Source: Bacillota bacterium
Lineage (GTDB): Bacteria; Bacillota; Bacilli; Alicyclobacillales; Alicyclobacillaceae
DNA: 6,119 nucleotides
Direction of reading: 5' to 3'
NCBI GenBank assembly: GCA_021816665.1
Contig: JAKAXI010000134.1
Span: 1-6,119 of the forward strand
The notes beneath the pieces were generated by a model. That model worked only from the letters and a program-made list of their open reading frames with translations. It was not told the origin of the DNA and ran no database searches. Made by a program: the position numbers and the translations under genes. Positions 105 to 6,119 of the stretch are shown piece by piece (the stretch's first letter is position 1; each line of letters begins with the position of its first letter).

Positions 105-154
105 TGGTTGGACTGAATCCAACGAACCGTGTATAATGGGTCAAAATCGTTGGA
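105..154. promoter_or_regulatory. Candidate operator: three TCGTTGGA-like half-sites around the promoter
   Basis: TCCAACGA at 118-125 and TCGTTGGA at 147-154 form a perfect 8-bp inverted repeat whose 21-bp spacer holds the TATAAT box. A third copy, TGGTTGGA at 105-112 (7 of 8 matches), overlaps the -35 region. With the left arm it makes a tighter palindrome, GTTGGA-N5-TCCAAC, at 107-123. The first and third copies lie in the same orientation exactly 42 bp apart, close to four helical turns. The left arms lie upstream of the predicted transcription start, so this is a DNA site and not an RNA hairpin. The natural candidate binder is the adjacent HTH protein; that link is inferred. Confidence 0.5.
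108..137 (+). promoter_or_regulatory. Sigma-A-type promoter of the HTH-guanylate kinase operon
   Basis: A perfect TATAAT -10 box lies at 132-137. With an 18-bp spacer, the best -35 candidate is TTGGAC at 108-113, which matches only the first three consensus positions. Transcription would start near 144, about 25 bases before the ATG at 169, leaving a short leader that contains the ribosome binding site GAGGAG at 158-163. The weak -35 fits a promoter that needs an activator or is modulated by a factor bound at the surrounding repeats. Confidence 0.65.
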
Positions 155-168
155 GATGAGGAGACACC

Positions 169-987
169 ATGACTGGCGTACAGTTTCAATTGAATCGTCT
201 GTTGTTCGAGCGCGGGATGAACGTACCTGCACTCGTTAAAAAAAGCGGTGTGAACCGAAACACCCTGTACGCTATGAAAAACAACGCCCTCAGTAGGGTC
301 GACCTCGACGTCCTTGAGCGCGTCTGCAACGCACTCCTTTGCTCTCTGTCTGAACTCGTTGTGTACGACCCAGCTGAGTCAGAAGAGCGCCCCGTGATCC
401 GCTTTGACTCGTCGTTTCGGCGCGAGCGGGAGGGGCGTATTTTTATTATTTCCGGTCCGTCTGGCGCAGGTAAAAACACACTCATCAACCAGTTGAAAAG
501 CCTGCACCTTGGCGTGCACTACATTCCATCTTTCACGACGCGCTCGCTGCGCCCGGGTGAGGTGCAGGGCAATCCTTATCACTTTGTCGACTTGGAGTCA
601 TTTCAGAAAATGATCGAGGCGCATGAGTTCCTGGAGTACGAGCAGATTCACGGCAACTACTACGGTACGCATGCGAAGTCCTATGAATACGCCATTCAGC
701 ATGGCTACGACGTTCTCAAAGACATCGATGTCAATGGCGCCCTGAACTTCCGTAAGTGGTTTCACGACCATGTAGTGCTGATCTACGTTCGCCCGACTGA
801 CTTGTCCACCCTGCAACGGCGACTGTCTGACCGCGGCGATTCAGACGAAGACATTCGTTTGCGTTTGAAGCGAATTGAATTCGAAGAGTCGAAGCGCGAT
901 GAGTTTGACTACCTGATCTATAACGATGACGTGTCGTTGGCACGGAAAAGCCTCCTTGACATTCTGACGGCAGAAGGGGTTCTGTGA
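169..987 (+). CDS. XRE-family HTH domain fused to a guanylate kinase domain
   Basis: This 272-residue protein has two parts. Residues about 5-66 match a short Cro/CI-type HTH (LNRLLFERGM, then SGVNRNTLYAM as turn and recognition helix, then DLDVLERVCNAL). After a charged linker, residues about 89-270 are a guanylate kinase, which transfers phosphate from ATP to GMP. The P-loop is GPSGAGKNT (96-104). Aligned with the yeast enzyme, the GMP contacts are retained: S121, R125, R128, E131, Y137, E156, Y165, T167 and D187 of DIDVNG. The lid region has RLSDRGDSDEDI. The residue after the P-loop lysine is N103 where Ser or Gly is usual. The start has GAGGAG 5 bases upstream. It is first in a tightly packed operon with an ABC transporter. 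It is unlikely to be the housekeeping Gmk, which normally lacks an HTH. I infer a nucleotide-responsive regulator; whether it still has kinase activity is unknown. Confidence 0.9.
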   Translation: MTGVQFQLNRLLFERGMNVPALVKKSGVNRNTLYAMKNNALSRVDLDVLERVCNALLCSLSELVVYDPAESEERPVIRFDSSFRREREGRIFIISGPSGAGKNTLINQLKSLHLGVHYIPSFTTRSLRPGEVQGNPYHFVDLESFQKMIEAHEFLEYEQIHGNYYGTHAKSYEYAIQHGYDVLKDIDVNGALNFRKWFHDHVVLIYVRPTDLSTLQRRLSDRGDSDEDIRLRLKRIEFEESKRDEFDYLIYNDDVSLARKSLLDILTAEGVL

Positions 988-988
988 G

Positions 989-3001
989 ATGGCTGTGCGG
1001 GGAGGACGCCGTTCCTCGCTGCAGAGAGTGGACAAGCTCAGATATGCGGGGCGATTGATCACCGCCTGCCTAATCCTGTGTGCAGCCATGCTGATGCTGC
1101 CCATTCCTTCTGCGGCGGCAGCAACCACTGGGCTGCAGCACGTTTCTGTCGGATTTCGCGGTTACTACGGCAAAAACTCGTGGGTGCCAGTCACCGCGCA
1201 AGTCTCGAATCCGGGCCCCGCGACCGCAGCACAACTGACGATTAGCGTCTCATCGGACATTAGTTCGACCCGCAATGCCTCTGGCACGTTGCATTGGGCG
1301 TTCAGTTTGCCAGCGCACAGCACCGTCAACAAACAGGTCTTGGTGCCAGGATTCCTGATCGGAAACGGCAGTCTGAATCTCGTCATCAACGGCGTGGTAC
1401 GAAACTCCATTCCGCTCGCAGGCAATGCGCTCGGTAACGTCGCATTGGTCGTCGTGCTGTCGCATCAAGCACAAGTGGCGCAGACTCTGCTTGGCAGTGA
1501 AAACAGCACGACAGCTGCACCTGTGCTACCAGTTACGATCGCGCCGAGTGCATTTCCTGCCAGTATCGATGGACTGAGCGGTTTAACAGCCATTGTCAGC
1601 ACTCCAAGAGACCTAGCTGAGCTGTCACCCACGCAAACCGCCAGCATCCAGTCTTGGGTGAGGCTTGGCGGACTGCTGATTGTGACAAACACGCTTGGCG
1701 AAGGTGCCCCGTGGAGCGGGTGGTATCCTCTCACCGCAGCACCTGCTCACAAGGTGTCAGGTTCAGGACTTGAACTGTTCATCGGCGGGACGCAACTCCC
1801 AGCACCGAAACTCACAATCCAGGCTGCGCCCTACTCCCTTGCCCCAGGGGCGAGTTTGTGGGCCGAAACAGGCGTGCAACCGCTCATCGCGGAACAGAGC
1901 GAAGGACGCGGAACCGTGGTGCAAACGTCGTTTTCACCATCGGATCCGGCGCTTGTGGTTTGGCCAGGCATTGGTACACTGTGGACAACGTTGCTCAAGA
2001 TGGGTGGTTCGCAAAGTCAGAGTGCGCTGCCAGACTATTTATCTCCTACTGGTGTGTTTTCACTGGCCTCCGCGAGTGAGGGATTGACGCCGTTGCGAGT
2101 CCCGTCGCTGCGGTTTTGGGCTACGCTGTTTGGGATCTACGTCCTCTGTGCTGGACCGCTCCTGTTCTTTCTCTTGCGCAGGTTAAGGCGACAGCCAGCA
2201 GCGTGGGTCGTTCTGCCAGTCTTCAGTGTGTTGGTGACGGTCGGGATTTATCTCTTTGGCGCTTCGCAGCGACCCACTGGGATGCTGACGGAGGGCGCAG
2301 GTATCCTCGACTTGGTGGGCAATGGCCAGGCAGAGGCGTACGGCGTTCGCGCGATGATGTCGCCGCGCGTCTCAACTTTTGACGTTGTGGTACGCCAGCC
2401 CATGCTCGCTCTGCCGCTTGTCGAGCACAACAACGGGGTGTCGGAAGAAGAGTCCACTTTGATTGGGAGTGGAACGCGCATCTCCTTTCGCAGGGTGTCG
2501 CGATGGGGTGTTCGTTACAGTTATCTAGCCGGGGCAGTCAAAGGGCAGGGGGAACTTTCGGCGGCACTCGCGAATGACCTTGGAACTCTGATTGGCACGG
2601 TTCAGAACCACACTCCCTACACGCTAAACGACGTCGCCATCGGTTGGAACGGAGCTCTTTATGAACTTGGCGATTTGAAACCGGGCGCAACAGCAGTGGT
2701 TCCATCAACGCAGAGTACGATTCTCAAGACAGGGAATTGGCTCAGCGCCTACAGCGGATATAACCACGACATCACGCGCTCGATTGGCCGTTCGATCGGT
2801 TCACTTGCAGGTACCGAGCAGTTGCTGTACTCGGATATCGGCATTAACTCTGCGCTCATTGTCGCGACGACGCGAGACACGACGCCGGGGCTCGGAAGTG
2901 TGGTTGCGTTTGAGCCGAAGGCCTCTGATCAGACGTTAACGCTAGTGCGCCAGTATGCGAATGTTGTGCAAGCCGGAGAAGGCGGGGTGCGAAGTACGTG
3001 A
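989..3001 (+). CDS. Exported membrane-anchored protein, extracytoplasmic partner of the ABC transporter
   Basis: This 670-residue protein has an Arg/Lys-rich n-region, a hydrophobic core at about 22-38 and a signal-peptidase-like PSAAAA site near residue 44. Residues about 48-135 look like an Ig/beta-sandwich domain. Residues about 150-335 contain an alpha/beta segment (LTAIVSTPRDLAEL, then SIQSWVRLGGLLIVTN) resembling the domain found in GldG-like ABC auxiliary proteins. Two membrane segments (about 375-397 and 405-424) are joined by a basic loop (RRLRRQ), so both large regions face outward. The C-terminal part holds another beta-sandwich-like stretch (GTVQNHTPYTLNDVAI, then ELGDLKPG). There is no C-terminal anchor. 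The ATG follows the kinase stop by one base and has AAGGGG at 974-979 as ribosome binding site, so translation is probably coupled. It overlaps the ATPase gene by 4 bp. I recognise no named family; the role as a substrate-binding or cell-wall-facing subunit is inferred. Confidence 0.85.
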   Translation: MAVRGGRRSSLQRVDKLRYAGRLITACLILCAAMLMLPIPSAAAATTGLQHVSVGFRGYYGKNSWVPVTAQVSNPGPATAAQLTISVSSDISSTRNASGTLHWAFSLPAHSTVNKQVLVPGFLIGNGSLNLVINGVVRNSIPLAGNALGNVALVVVLSHQAQVAQTLLGSENSTTAAPVLPVTIAPSAFPASIDGLSGLTAIVSTPRDLAELSPTQTASIQSWVRLGGLLIVTNTLGEGAPWSGWYPLTAAPAHKVSGSGLELFIGGTQLPAPKLTIQAAPYSLAPGASLWAETGVQPLIAEQSEGRGTVVQTSFSPSDPALVVWPGIGTLWTTLLKMGGSQSQSALPDYLSPTGVFSLASASEGLTPLRVPSLRFWATLFGIYVLCAGPLLFFLLRRLRRQPAAWVVLPVFSVLVTVGIYLFGASQRPTGMLTEGAGILDLVGNGQAEAYGVRAMMSPRVSTFDVVVRQPMLALPLVEHNNGVSEEESTLIGSGTRISFRRVSRWGVRYSYLAGAVKGQGELSAALANDLGTLIGTVQNHTPYTLNDVAIGWNGALYELGDLKPGATAVVPSTQSTILKTGNWLSAYSGYNHDITRSIGRSIGSLAGTEQLLYSDIGINSALIVATTRDTTPGLGSVVAFEPKASDQTLTLVRQYANVVQAGEGGVRST

Positions 3002-3930
3002 TTCAGGCACTCAATCTAAGCAAACGTTACGGTCGATTTATGGCTGTACAGAACTTGAATTTAATGGTGCGTCAAGGAACGGTGTTTGGCCTTGTCGGCG
3101 AGAATGGGGCAGGTAAGACCACGACCCTGTCGATGTTCGCGACCTTGACTGCGCCCACATCGGGACGAGCCTATATCGATGGGTTTGAGATCACGAGCCA
3201 GTCCCAAGAGGTCCGGCGCAGTGTCAGTTACATGCCGGACTCGTTCGGCGTGTACGACGATTTGAGCACCGCGGAGTACCTTGAGTTCTACGCGGACTGT
3301 TATGGGGTACCCAAACAGGTTGCACGGAGAAGAAGCATCGAGATGCTCGAGTGGGTTAACTTGGTCGATCAGCGTGGCACATACGTCAATGCGCTCTCCA
3401 AGGGGATGCAACAGCGGCTGGAAATTGCCCGCTGTCTGATGCACGACCCACAGGTGTTGATTCTCGATGAACCGGCTTCTGGACTCGACCCAAGGTCGCG
3501 TATCGACATGCGCGGCGTATTGCAGCGACTACGAGAACTCGGTAAAACCATTCTCATCAGCTCACATATTTTGTATGAACTGAGCGAGATCTCGGACGAG
3601 ATCGGCATCATGCGCGGCGGTGAATTGGCCGCAGTCGCGAGCGTCACCGCACTGTTGGAGCATTCGAGTGCCCATCGTCGACTATGGTTGGCCGGGGACG
3701 CAGACAAAGCTACGTGGGAGCACTTGCTCCGCGCCGACAACTGTGTGCGAAACATACGCTATGCAGAGGGCGGAGTGGAAGTCACCTACGCGGGTACAGT
3801 TGAGCAACAAGCGGGGTTAATGCGTTACTTGGTAGAGCAAGGGGTCAAGTTGTACCAGTTCGCAGAGCGTCCGACAGACATTGAAGCGCTGTTTCTGCGC
3901 TTGACCGACCAGGCGGTGAACCTGCTGTGA
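2998..3930 (+). CDS. ABC transporter ATP-binding protein
   Basis: This 310-residue cytoplasmic ATPase powers the adjacent permease. It shows Walker A GENGAGKT (34-41), signature LSKGMQQR (133-140), Walker B VLILDEP (153-159) with catalytic E158, D-loop SGLDP (161-165) and switch histidine H190. The Q-loop region reads YMPDSFGVYDDLS, with D81 where glutamine is usual; this MPD form occurs in a subgroup of ABC-2 exporters. The signature has K where Gly is typical (LSKGM), also seen in this class. Residues about 220-310 form the C-terminal accessory region usual for ABC-2-type ATPases. Translation starts at GTG 2998, inside a GTGA overlap with the previous stop, with GGCGGGG at 2981-2987 as likely ribosome binding site. 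The substrate cannot be read from the sequence. Confidence 0.95.
   Translation: MIQALNLSKRYGRFMAVQNLNLMVRQGTVFGLVGENGAGKTTTLSMFATLTAPTSGRAYIDGFEITSQSQEVRRSVSYMPDSFGVYDDLSTAEYLEFYADCYGVPKQVARRRSIEMLEWVNLVDQRGTYVNALSKGMQQRLEIARCLMHDPQVLILDEPASGLDPRSRIDMRGVLQRLRELGKTILISSHILYELSEISDEIGIMRGGELAAVASVTALLEHSSAHRRLWLAGDADKATWEHLLRADNCVRNIRYAEGGVEVTYAGTVEQQAGLMRYLVEQGVKLYQFAERPTDIEALFLRLTDQAVNLL
3911..3919 (+). promoter_or_regulatory. Ribosome binding site fixing the GTG start of the permease
   Basis: AGGCGGTGA matches 8 of 9 bases of the ideal AGGAGGTGA and ends 7 bases before GTG 3927. It lies inside the ATPase coding sequence, which supports the GTG start in the GTGA overlap over any downstream ATG. 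Confidence 0.7.
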
Positions 3931-4766
3931 ACATCAACCCGCTCTTGCGGAAAGAGTTTCGCCAACGTATGCGCACAAATCGGGCGCCGTTTGTGATTAC
4001 CGCGTACACCGTTGTGATGTCCCTGTTGACGTTTTTTCTGCTCTACGAAAACGTCCAAGGTCAGCTGTTGCCGCTTTTGCCGGTGCGCTCTGAACAGGTG
4101 TTTGTGATTCTCAGTCTATTGCAAATGATGGTCGTGGCGCTCATGACACCAGCGTTTGCAGCGGGATCTATCTCAGGGGAGCGAGAGCGTAGAACCCTGG
4201 TCGTACTCCTGACCACACCGCTTTCGCCTCTGCGCATTCTCGGCGGGAAAATCCTGTCTTCCAGCGCACTTTTGGGTTTGCTCTTGGTGACCACGCTGCC
4301 CCTTTACAGTCTGGTCTTTTTGTTCGGTGCCGCAGTGCCAGCCGAAGTTGTCGCTGTGTTCGCGTTTCAGCTGTTTACCATTGTCCTAATCGCGACTTTG
4401 AGCGTGTTGTGGTCGACGATTGCGCTGCGCTCCGGTTGGAGTACTGTGCTCTCGTATGCTACCGTAGGATGGATGGTGTTGGTATCGGGCGCAGTCGGAT
4501 ATGGACTGCAGATTATTTCAAAGCGGGATCCGATGGAGTTTTTTGCCGCCCACTGGGCCGTCATTTTTCTCTCCCTCAACCCGCTGTGGATTGAGGCTTC
4601 GTTTGAGGCCGCTGTGAACGCCCCCGCTCACGCATGGGTAGAGTTTGTCGCGTTCTACTGCCTGTTAGCGTTGCTGCTAACCTTGCCGAGCATCTGGCGA
4701 TTGCGACCGCAGGCACTCCGAAAGTTGCCGGCTGTCAAGCGGTTGAGTGAGCAGGACTACGAATGA
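3927..4766 (+). CDS. ABC-2-type transporter permease
   Basis: This 279-residue protein is the membrane channel partner of the preceding ATPase. A short basic N-terminus (LLRKEFRQRMRTNR) is followed by membrane segments at about 22-40, 57-79, 112-134, 140-166, 172-194 and 239-257, giving the six-helix plan of ABC-2 permeases; the stretch at about 208-220 is hydrophobic but short. After the second segment comes SGERERRTLVVLLTTPLS (83-100), the conserved cytoplasmic element of this family that contacts the ATPase. Such pairs usually export drugs, lipids, polysaccharides or peptides, or act in envelope assembly; the cargo here is unknown. With only one permease gene, the transporter would be a homodimer unless the exported protein or a distant gene supplies the other half. 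Confidence 0.92.
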   Translation: MNINPLLRKEFRQRMRTNRAPFVITAYTVVMSLLTFFLLYENVQGQLLPLLPVRSEQVFVILSLLQMMVVALMTPAFAAGSISGERERRTLVVLLTTPLSPLRILGGKILSSSALLGLLLVTTLPLYSLVFLFGAAVPAEVVAVFAFQLFTIVLIATLSVLWSTIALRSGWSTVLSYATVGWMVLVSGAVGYGLQIISKRDPMEFFAAHWAVIFLSLNPLWIEASFEAAVNAPAHAWVEFVAFYCLLALLLTLPSIWRLRPQALRKLPAVKRLSEQDYE

Positions 4767-4794: not shown

Positions 4795-4799
4795 GTTCG

Positions 4800-4834
4800 T
4801 ATTAAAATCGTTCTGTCAGTGAAACATCTGTCAG
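4800..4834 (+). promoter_or_regulatory. Possible weak promoter and direct-repeat operator before the adaptor gene
   Basis: The 95-bp gap contains the AT-rich run TATTAAAAT (4800-4808), in which TAAAAT at 4803-4808 matches the -10 consensus at 5 of 6 positions. No convincing -35 lies 16-18 bp upstream. Just downstream is a perfect 8-bp direct repeat, TCTGTCAG at 4812-4819 and 4827-4834, with a 15-bp period. Direct repeats overlapping a start site are typical of regulator sites, but the binder is unknown. The gap suggests that the adaptor gene has its own control in addition to any read-through. Confidence 0.35.
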
Positions 4835-5506: not shown

Positions 5507-5550
5507 CCCGATCTTACTGAATTTGTAACCTTGGCGTAAGGCAAGACGAT

Positions 5551-5559
5551 GGGAGTGAA
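5551..5559 (+). promoter_or_regulatory. Ribosome binding site deciding the start of the last gene
   Basis: GGGAGTGAA resembles the GGAGGTGA consensus, and its GGGAG core ends 8 bases before ATG 5564. The in-frame ATG at 5549 overlaps this site and has only a weak AAGG upstream, so 5564 is the better start. Confidence 0.55.
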
Positions 5560-5563
5560 GGAC

Positions 5564-6119
5564 ATGAATGGCACTTTGCTCGGGGTTATTGCCCTGGGGC
5601 TTGTCTTGGTGTGTCTGTGGATCTGGATGAATATCCTTCTGACGCGCCCGAAGCGTCGGTCAGTGGCAGAAGATGCGCGAAGCCGCGTGCCACAGGCCCA
5701 GTCCGAAGTGTCTGAAGAACGTGACCCTGACAAATCGCATGATCATACGCTGTTAACTGCCTCGTCAGGAGGGGGATTGGCAGGACCGGAAGCCGCCCCG
5801 GAAGTAGTAGCCGCTGCAGGGGCGTTGGCAGGGGGGCCACTCGCGCGTCCAAATGACTCATCTGAGACGACACAGGAGGTAAACCGCAGGTCGTCCGCCA
5901 GCGACGCTCAAGACCTCGAGGTTGTCTCTAGCCGGCGCGACACAGGGAAGACGCCGAAGATCTTTGACCGATCACAGACTCACCCGTTTCGCATGAACAC
6001 CTTCGTCGCGCCCTCGTTTGAAGAGAAGACTTGGGTGGAGTCGTTTTACCGACTTCACGAAGACCCTTCCGTGGTCGGTTGGATTGCGTTTCATAACAAC
6101 TCGGTGGGTGCGTCTGACA
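5564..6119 (+). CDS. Single-pass membrane protein, unrecognised (3' end beyond window)
   Basis: The frame is open from ATG 5564 to the right edge, giving 185 complete codons with no stop. Residues about 4-26 (LLGVIALGLVLVCLWIWMNILL) form one membrane helix followed by a basic stretch (RPKRR), which predicts an outside N-terminus and a cytoplasmic body. Residues about 33-137 are low-complexity, first charged and then Ala/Gly-rich (AAAGALAGG), and are probably disordered. From about 140 the sequence becomes folded-looking: HPFRMNTFVAPSFEEKTW, then VESFYRLHEDPSVVGWIAFH. That helix followed by a strand after PSVVG faintly resembles the start of a Roadblock/LC7-like domain, but this is speculative. 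It follows the adaptor gene by 57 bp on the same strand with no clear terminator, so co-transcription is likely. No function can be assigned. Confidence 0.75.
   Translation, partial: MNGTLLGVIALGLVLVCLWIWMNILLTRPKRRSVAEDARSRVPQAQSEVSEERDPDKSHDHTLLTASSGGGLAGPEAAPEVVAAAGALAGGPLARPNDSSETTQEVNRRSSASDAQDLEVVSSRRDTGKTPKIFDRSQTHPFRMNTFVAPSFEEKTWVESFYRLHEDPSVVGWIAFHNNSVGASD

Follow-up and report, generated by a model that had tools for sequence, protein, structure and literature searches.

NadR, BirA and the archaeal riboflavin kinase regulator RbkR each join a biosynthetic enzyme to a helix-turn-helix (HTH) domain, and are thought to couple the level of a metabolite to transcription. Guanylate kinase (GMK) catalyzes a required step to GTP and should be essential. 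Bacterial GMK is a dimer, and in B. subtilis the enzyme is one of the known targets of (p)ppGpp, with deletion of ten C-terminal residues weakening both the binding of pppGpp and the inhibition by it (available text of PMC6783271). In BzdR an N-terminal XRE-type HTH is joined through a linker to a C-terminal kinase-type domain, which is inactive and senses benzoyl-CoA for a catabolic operon; the work on BzdR argues that such regulators come about when an HTH joins an enzyme and catalysis is then lost, and the active intermediate was built synthetically (available text of PMC3602430).

Here we analyze a stretch of 6,119 nucleotides (the window) from a bacterium of the Alicyclobacillaceae, in which an XRE-type HTH and a complete guanylate kinase domain are encoded by one open reading frame (P0001; ‘the fusion’). 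We consider it probable (about 0.6) that the sole guanylate kinase of 17 Alicyclobacillus-group genomes, fused to a conserved HTH, binds a site at its own promoter and thereby sets its own expression by the occupancy of its kinase site. Fusions of enzymes and HTH domains are a known kind; what is new is the enzyme, its status as the only one found in the genome, the intactness of its kinase site and an apparent binding site at the promoter of the same gene. A search by title and abstract, with most subscription journals outside its range, returned no paper on an HTH-guanylate kinase.

The fusion is like NadR, BirA and RbkR in the joining of enzyme and HTH, the step here being GMP to GDP, but differs in that a candidate site was detected at no promoter other than that of its own gene, with no regulon. 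It shares with BzdR an N-terminal XRE-type HTH, a linker and a C-terminal kinase-type domain (available text of PMC3602430), but does not belong to the BzdR type as judged from its sequence, which has an intact kinase site, and from the genomes, in which no second enzyme was found. Like ordinary Gmk (TIGR03263), it has a full domain and an intact site and is the only PF00625 gene in its genome, whereas its N-terminal HTH, its GKNT P-loop and its position outside the slot before rpoZ set it apart, as does the lack, in most fused proteins, of the C-terminal tail of the ordinary enzymes of the family.

Architecture of the fusion protein

The coordinates of the features discussed here are given in Table 1.

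Table 1. Features of the window, with positions counted from its first nucleotide.
Feature	Positions	Strand	Basis or remark
Promoter block TTGGACTGAATCCAACGAA, with palindrome TTGGA-N5-TCCAA at 108-122	108..126	+	Candidate operator; binding putative
Half-site TCCAACGA, a form of TNCAAYGA	118..125	+	Upstream of 17/17 fused genes
Inverted half-site (TCGTTGGA on + strand)	147..154	-	21 nt from the first, -10 between; 2/17 genomes
Predicted -35, TGGACT	109..114	+	Alternative TTGGAC at 108-113, 18-nt spacer, by eye
Predicted -10, TATAAT	132..137	+	Promoter prediction
HTH-guanylate kinase fusion (P0001)	169..987	+	Intact ORF, ATG start, 272 aa
HTH_26 (PF13443), Cro/C1-type, residues 8-68	190..372	+	Pfam, helices in model, conservation
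Predicted recognition helix, residues 30-37	256..279	+	Place in the fold
Guanylate kinase domain (PF00625), residues 89-268	433..972	+	Pfam / NCBIfam
P-loop GPSGAGKNT	454..480	+	Sequence; invariant across 19 aligned rows
670-aa protein, no Pfam/NCBIfam match	989..3001	+	Starts 2 nt after the last base of the fusion
ABC transporter ATPase (PF00005)	2998..3930	+	Pfam / NCBIfam; co-directional
ABC-2 type permease (PF12679)	3927..4766	+	Pfam; co-directional

The first-pass annotation, made from the sequence alone, had read an XRE-type HTH and an entire GMP kinase in a single ORF, and profile searches and a structural model confirm this. P0001 matches HTH_26 (PF13443) with an E-value of 1.1e-14 and 54.9 bits (Pfam cut-off 22) and Guanylate_kin (PF00625) with an E-value of 9.3e-36 and 123.7 bits (Pfam cut-off 25.2); its score of 174.2 bits against the NCBIfam equivalog TIGR03263 (cut-off 160.45) makes it a member of that family. 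An AlphaFold2 model (mean pLDDT 94, pTM 0.73) places the kinase domain after the HTH, which has a helical fold with helices at residues 8-14, 19-26, 30-37 and 46-56. When the model was compared with the PDB by Foldseek, all 50 matches listed, out of 1513, were guanylate kinases.

A GTG codon at 394-396 (V76), with a weak AGAAG upstream, lies by eye at about the position where HTH-less relatives start. An internal start at V76 could yield an HTH-free kinase.

Distribution of the fusion and the ordinary gmk slot

A search for the architecture across genomes, which the first-pass annotation had proposed, covered 59 genomes of the order and found it in 17. These comprise all three genomes of the genus of the window, here g1 (G000, the genome of the window, and its genus-mates G001 and G002), and 14 of 15 genomes of the next genus, g5. 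At the protein level the fusion is present in at least 20 clusters (among 120 of 314 matches listed); further scoring of 7998 candidates (best 120 of 5262) gave a top 20 made up of fused clusters already known, and a query with the HTH only matched the protein of the window and three close fused ones. Ten of 50 loci from named genome records carry the fusion, all ten of them from Alicyclobacillus. This recurrence speaks against an architecture that arose by chance in the window. Matches were present in 71 of 50,697 phage records and 84 of 72,556 plasmid records, none covering more than 80% of the protein, and a mobile fused copy carried by a phage or plasmid was rejected on this basis.

Exactly one PF00625 match was found in each of the 17 fusion genomes, 16 of which are at least 98% complete and seven of which are in four or fewer contigs (the highest contamination, 10%, is that of G063). 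The genome of the window is only 72.6% complete, so that its PF00625 count alone would prove little, although the ordinary gmk slot can still be read there. RemA-like matches are present in 40 of the 59 genomes of the order, and 30 remA loci were examined. In 21 of these gmk lies directly after remA, with its P-loop 40-117 nt past the remA stop, while eight, including those of all three g1 genomes, lead straight to rpoZ in 64-104 nt with gmk absent (one of the 30 loci could not be parsed). None of the 15 g5 genomes has a RemA-like match, so rpoZ was used to locate the ordinary slot in that genus. In all 14 fused g5 genomes, rpoZ is located 122-142 nt after a gene that we take to be yicC-like from its start motif, with no gmk between the two. 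No gmk thus occupies the ordinary slot before rpoZ in any of the 17 fusion genomes.

G062, a complete g5 genome without the fusion, has as its sole gmk an ordinary gene, for a 203-aa enzyme, in the slot between yicC and rpoZ. The fusion and the ordinary gmk are thus mutually exclusive in g1 and g5, which fits the fusion as the working GMP kinase. Two more rpoZ-type genes, identical-looking, occur elsewhere in G062, and second, weaker PF00625 genes are present in two other genomes that have an ordinary gmk (G004:C1:3969671-3970135 and G015:C74:397-867).

The first-pass annotation had pictured a sensor separate from a housekeeping gmk. This is contradicted by the single PF00625 gene found and the empty slot in all 17 genomes, and an accessory sensor of this kind was rejected on these grounds. 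The same annotation had argued that a genome with no other gmk, together with a protein that does not bind DNA, would point to a housekeeping enzyme with an inert N-terminal extension; the first half of that statement holds in that no other gmk was found in any of the 17 fusion genomes, while the conservation of the HTH speaks against an inert extension.

Kinase site and C-terminal tail

We compared 18 positions of the kinase site (P-loop, GMP pocket, lid and conserved Arg/Asn). All 18 are invariant in the 19 aligned fused proteins, which represent 19 of the 20 fused clusters (P0007 is absent from the alignment). At 16 of the positions, each of 15 canonical GMKs has the residue of the fused proteins; at the remaining two, the canonical enzymes have D (12 enzymes) or E (three) at position 187, and A, I or V at position 235. 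The GKNT form of the P-loop is common to the fused proteins and to HTH-less enzymes of a family designated f2. The fused kinase looks competent on this sequence evidence, and it is expected to have GMP kinase activity because it is the sole gmk.

The kinase domain could instead act only as a sensor, its catalysis lost, and a precedent is BzdR, whose shikimate kinase-like domain, joined to an XRE domain, no longer has activity (available text of PMC3602430). We consider this extremely improbable here: the intact site residues, and the lack of any other gmk found to make GDP, led us to rule out a catalytically dead sensor of the BzdR kind from the sequence. A PezAT-like toxin-antitoxin in one chain was also set aside, the kinase being the sole gmk and having an intact site.

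The C-terminal ends are less uniform. Sixteen of 20 fused clusters end 19-24 residues past the ND motif, and the other four end 28-42 residues past it. Canonical enzymes of the family extend 32 and 39 residues past this motif in the two of 14 that were computed and about 32 by eye in the others, and the tail of the 16 clusters is about 10 residues shorter than that of the ordinary enzymes, the latter mostly counted by eye. By eye, the f2 enzymes are also without the canonical tail sequence, so loss of the tail probably predates gain of the HTH. The GMP-pocket residues of the (p)ppGpp target of B. subtilis are conserved in the fusion too, but the C-terminal tail that favors pppGpp binding in the B. 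subtilis enzyme is shortened in the 16 clusters (available text of PMC6783271). By its tail, the fusion falls outside the (p)ppGpp-inhibited GMKs of Bacillota, whose C-terminal tail acts on the lid of the other subunit in the dimer. The case for (p)ppGpp as a ligand, raised when the locus was first annotated, is weakened by the shortened tails, and (p)ppGpp is less likely as the signal of the fusion.

Conservation and origin of the HTH domain

Mean pairwise identity across the 17 genomes is 0.78 for the HTH and 0.76 for the kinase domain. Values of dN/dS, computable in eight of 12 pairs, range from 0 to 0.15 for the HTH, 0 to 0.05 for the kinase and 0 to 0.42 for the linker, with those of the HTH mostly above those of the kinase domain. 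At the predicted recognition helix, N29, N31, T32, L33, Y34, A35, K37 and N39 are identical in 17 of 17. Because it is as conserved as the kinase and under purifying selection, the HTH is hardly inert. Catalytic and DNA-binding-type domains that are both conserved in one chain are what would be expected of a protein of the NadR kind.

For phylogenetic placement, a tree was built from 66 kinase domains (midpoint-rooted; the program warned of long branches), leaving out L008 and P0038, in which the P-loop pattern was not found, and G010, which has the same domain as P0018. The fused and HTH-less proteins of the Alicyclobacillaceae form one clade (96/92), in which the HTH-less members are interleaved. 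The presence of the HTH requires six changes on this tree, two of them forced by well-supported branches; the HTH parts are clearly homologous, which makes one gain followed by several losses likelier than many gains. The tree includes seven HTH-less proteins, some of which may reflect wrong gene starts, and the DNA was checked for the gene of G010. This gene is the sole PF00625 match of its genome and encodes P0018 from residue 1 or nearly so; its kinase, represented in the tree by P0018, is placed within the fused clade and no HTH remnant is present in the DNA upstream of the gene, so that here loss is seen. In f2, an HTH-less kinase of the same type is located elsewhere, adjoining tadA, dnaX and recR (by eye).

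Two further HTH-less kinases of the GKNT type, P0127 and P0128, show weak similarity at the C-terminus to a ParB-type nuclease (PF08857, E-values of 1.1e-4 and 2.7e-4, just below the cut-off). The GKNT kinase lineage may thus have joined other domains too.

The interleaving of HTH-less members in the tree, the HTH-less gene that serves G010 as its sole PF00625 gene, and the g5 species G062 with only the ordinary 203-aa enzyme indicate that the kinase does not need the HTH, and could all be accommodated by a housekeeping enzyme whose HTH is non-regulatory, serving folding, dimerisation or localisation and binding no specific DNA. We regard this as unlikely, given that the residues at and around helix 30-37, where contact with DNA is expected, do not vary among the 17 genomes, and that a conserved promoter element accompanies the HTH.

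A conserved element at the promoter of the fusion gene

A sigma-70-type promoter is predicted at 109-137, with 10 of 12 consensus positions; two such sites were predicted in 1200 nt, compared to a mean of 0.5 in shuffled sequence. The 19-mer TTGGACTGAATCCAACGAA occurs once, without mismatch, in each of G000, G001 and G002, and a search of these three genomes found no other copy at one or two mismatches and three matches at three. When G002 and G001 are compared over 20 kb, no exact non-coding match is longer than the 19-mer except one of 77 nt at a tRNA-Met gene. The kinase dS between G000 and G001 is 2.8, near saturation (not computable for the HTH).

All 17 fused genes have the shorter pattern TNCAAYGA in the 130 nt that precede the F6 codon; the genes are related and hence do not represent 17 independent trials. 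Its background frequency is 77 in 2457 tiles of 130 nt (3.1%), and random sequence with the same neighbor make-up gave a mean of 0.9 in 17 and at most 4. Upstream of HTH-less relatives, the pattern was found in one of the 14 genes with a full 130 nt, and there the match is 120 nt away (from a set of 16 genes with assumed starts, two of which have almost no upstream sequence; the f2 genome G051 was left out). In g5 the element lies beside the -35 region or in the spacer, and most g5 genomes differ from g1 in how it is positioned with respect to the -10. Part of the element coincides with the core promoter, to which some of the conservation may be due. In G010, part of the promoter (TGTATAATGG) is kept, while both the element and the HTH are lost. 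A candidate site lies at the promoter of the fusion gene in every fusion genome, and the fusion may, like NadR, control a gene of its own pathway. The first-pass annotation’s proposal of a regulatory role is made plausible by the purifying selection on the HTH and by the conserved element, which lies within the region from 91 to 168 that it had singled out for DNA-binding assays.

Only in G000 and G002 do two half-sites clearly form an inverted pair, TCCAACGA-N21-TCGTTGGA, with the -10 box between them. In a shuffle test of the second arm, these two genomes gave values of at most 0.01, G061 and G064 gave 0.11 and the rest at least 0.38; at the 10% level the second arm is no better than shuffled sequence in 15 of the 17, and a clean dyad is not a feature of all the genomes. 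A match to the g5 element in G062 was dismissed as chance, being inside a coding frame, with a reversed control also giving one match. Rfam gave no match in the window at the gathering score, and a known RNA leader was rejected for this reason.

A longer form of the element occurs once, at the fusion gene, without mismatch in 10 of the 14 fused g5 genomes, and another longer form once, also at the fusion gene, in the other four (at most one mismatch); a shorter pattern has one extra match, with one mismatch, in G000. Because the longer patterns derive from the same promoters, information lies only in their lack of further copies. Chance alone would also leave a 17-19-mer without copies elsewhere, and this lack counts against no more than a large regulon that uses the full site. 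The fusion might also regulate a wider set of promoters (e.g., those of purine genes) through degenerate sites, its own promoter being one among them. In favor of this, a half-site as short as TNCAAYGA occurs in 3.1% of the background tiles, and NadR and BirA act on pathway genes beyond their own. The lack of near copies of the 19-mer in the three g1 genomes and the single occurrence of the longer forms in g5 speak against such a regulon, which seems to us distinctly improbable.

Elsewhere in the window, the 18-nt sequence GTTCGTATTAAAATCGTT at 4795-4812, upstream of an HlyD-like gene, is among the longest exact non-coding matches between two genus-mates. It has AAAATCGTT in common with 143-151, beside the gmk promoter, and the occurrence of this string in both places suggests that 4795-4812 may be a second site or a promoter.

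ABC genes downstream of the fusion

In the window, 1 nt separates the fusion from the gene for the 670-aa protein, and the genes after that overlap. In all three g1 genomes the fusion is followed, in order, by the 670-aa gene and the ABC genes, but the same ABC genes follow it in none of the 11 g5 loci compared (of 14; G031, G029 and G006 were left out). In three of these 11, different ABC ATPase genes lie close by, on the other strand. Each of 14 genomes searched encodes the 670-aa protein a single time, and its gene adjoins the fusion in G000, G001 and G002 alone; a homologue is located elsewhere in all five fused g5 genomes tested, and in G010 is on another contig. The 670-aa/ABC set is an older module that became linked to the fusion in g1.

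The first annotation of the locus had suggested control of an envelope transporter. On this reading the fusion would be dedicated to the downstream ABC transporter, regulating it in response to guanine nucleotides or (p)ppGpp; the conserved gene order in g1 and the close packing of the genes in the window favor it. The different placement in g5, the 670-aa homologues found away from the fusion, the status of the fusion as sole gmk and the missing alarmone tail in most fused clusters all weigh against it, and we consider it very unlikely. Transporter regulation as a general role was rejected from the g5 loci and the separate 670-aa homologues, and control of an envelope transporter would be at most local to g1.

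The end of the window (5549-6118) encodes the start of a protein of at least 190 aa, cut by the window end, with a hydrophobic N-terminal stretch (by eye); Pfam and NCBIfam gave no match to it.

A model for autoregulation and its implications

In the model that we propose, the fusion would be active as a GMP kinase, and should be the only one of the cell. A GMK dimer would present two HTH domains together, as a dyad like TTGGA-N5-TCCAA needs, and the paired HTHs would bind the TNCAAYGA / TTGGA-N5-TCCAA element. In g1, binding over the -35 region would block the promoter and so repress both the fusion gene and the following ABC genes, which would share this promoter. GMP, ATP or GDP in the kinase site would alter the affinity for DNA, giving feedback from the guanine nucleotide pool.

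More tentatively, the whole group may run its only guanylate kinase as its own repressor via kinase-site occupancy, having first lost the alarmone-linked tail and then gained a built-in feedback, with the fusion a still-catalytic intermediate between enzyme and regulator; we hold this broader account to be possible, at rather less than even odds. G010, in which the HTH is lost, and G062, with an ordinary gmk in the usual place, provide ready comparisons. If the reading is correct, a lineage as wide as a genus would have this enzyme control its own gene, and the fusion would be a natural, active HTH-enzyme intermediate of the kind that had to be built for BzdR.
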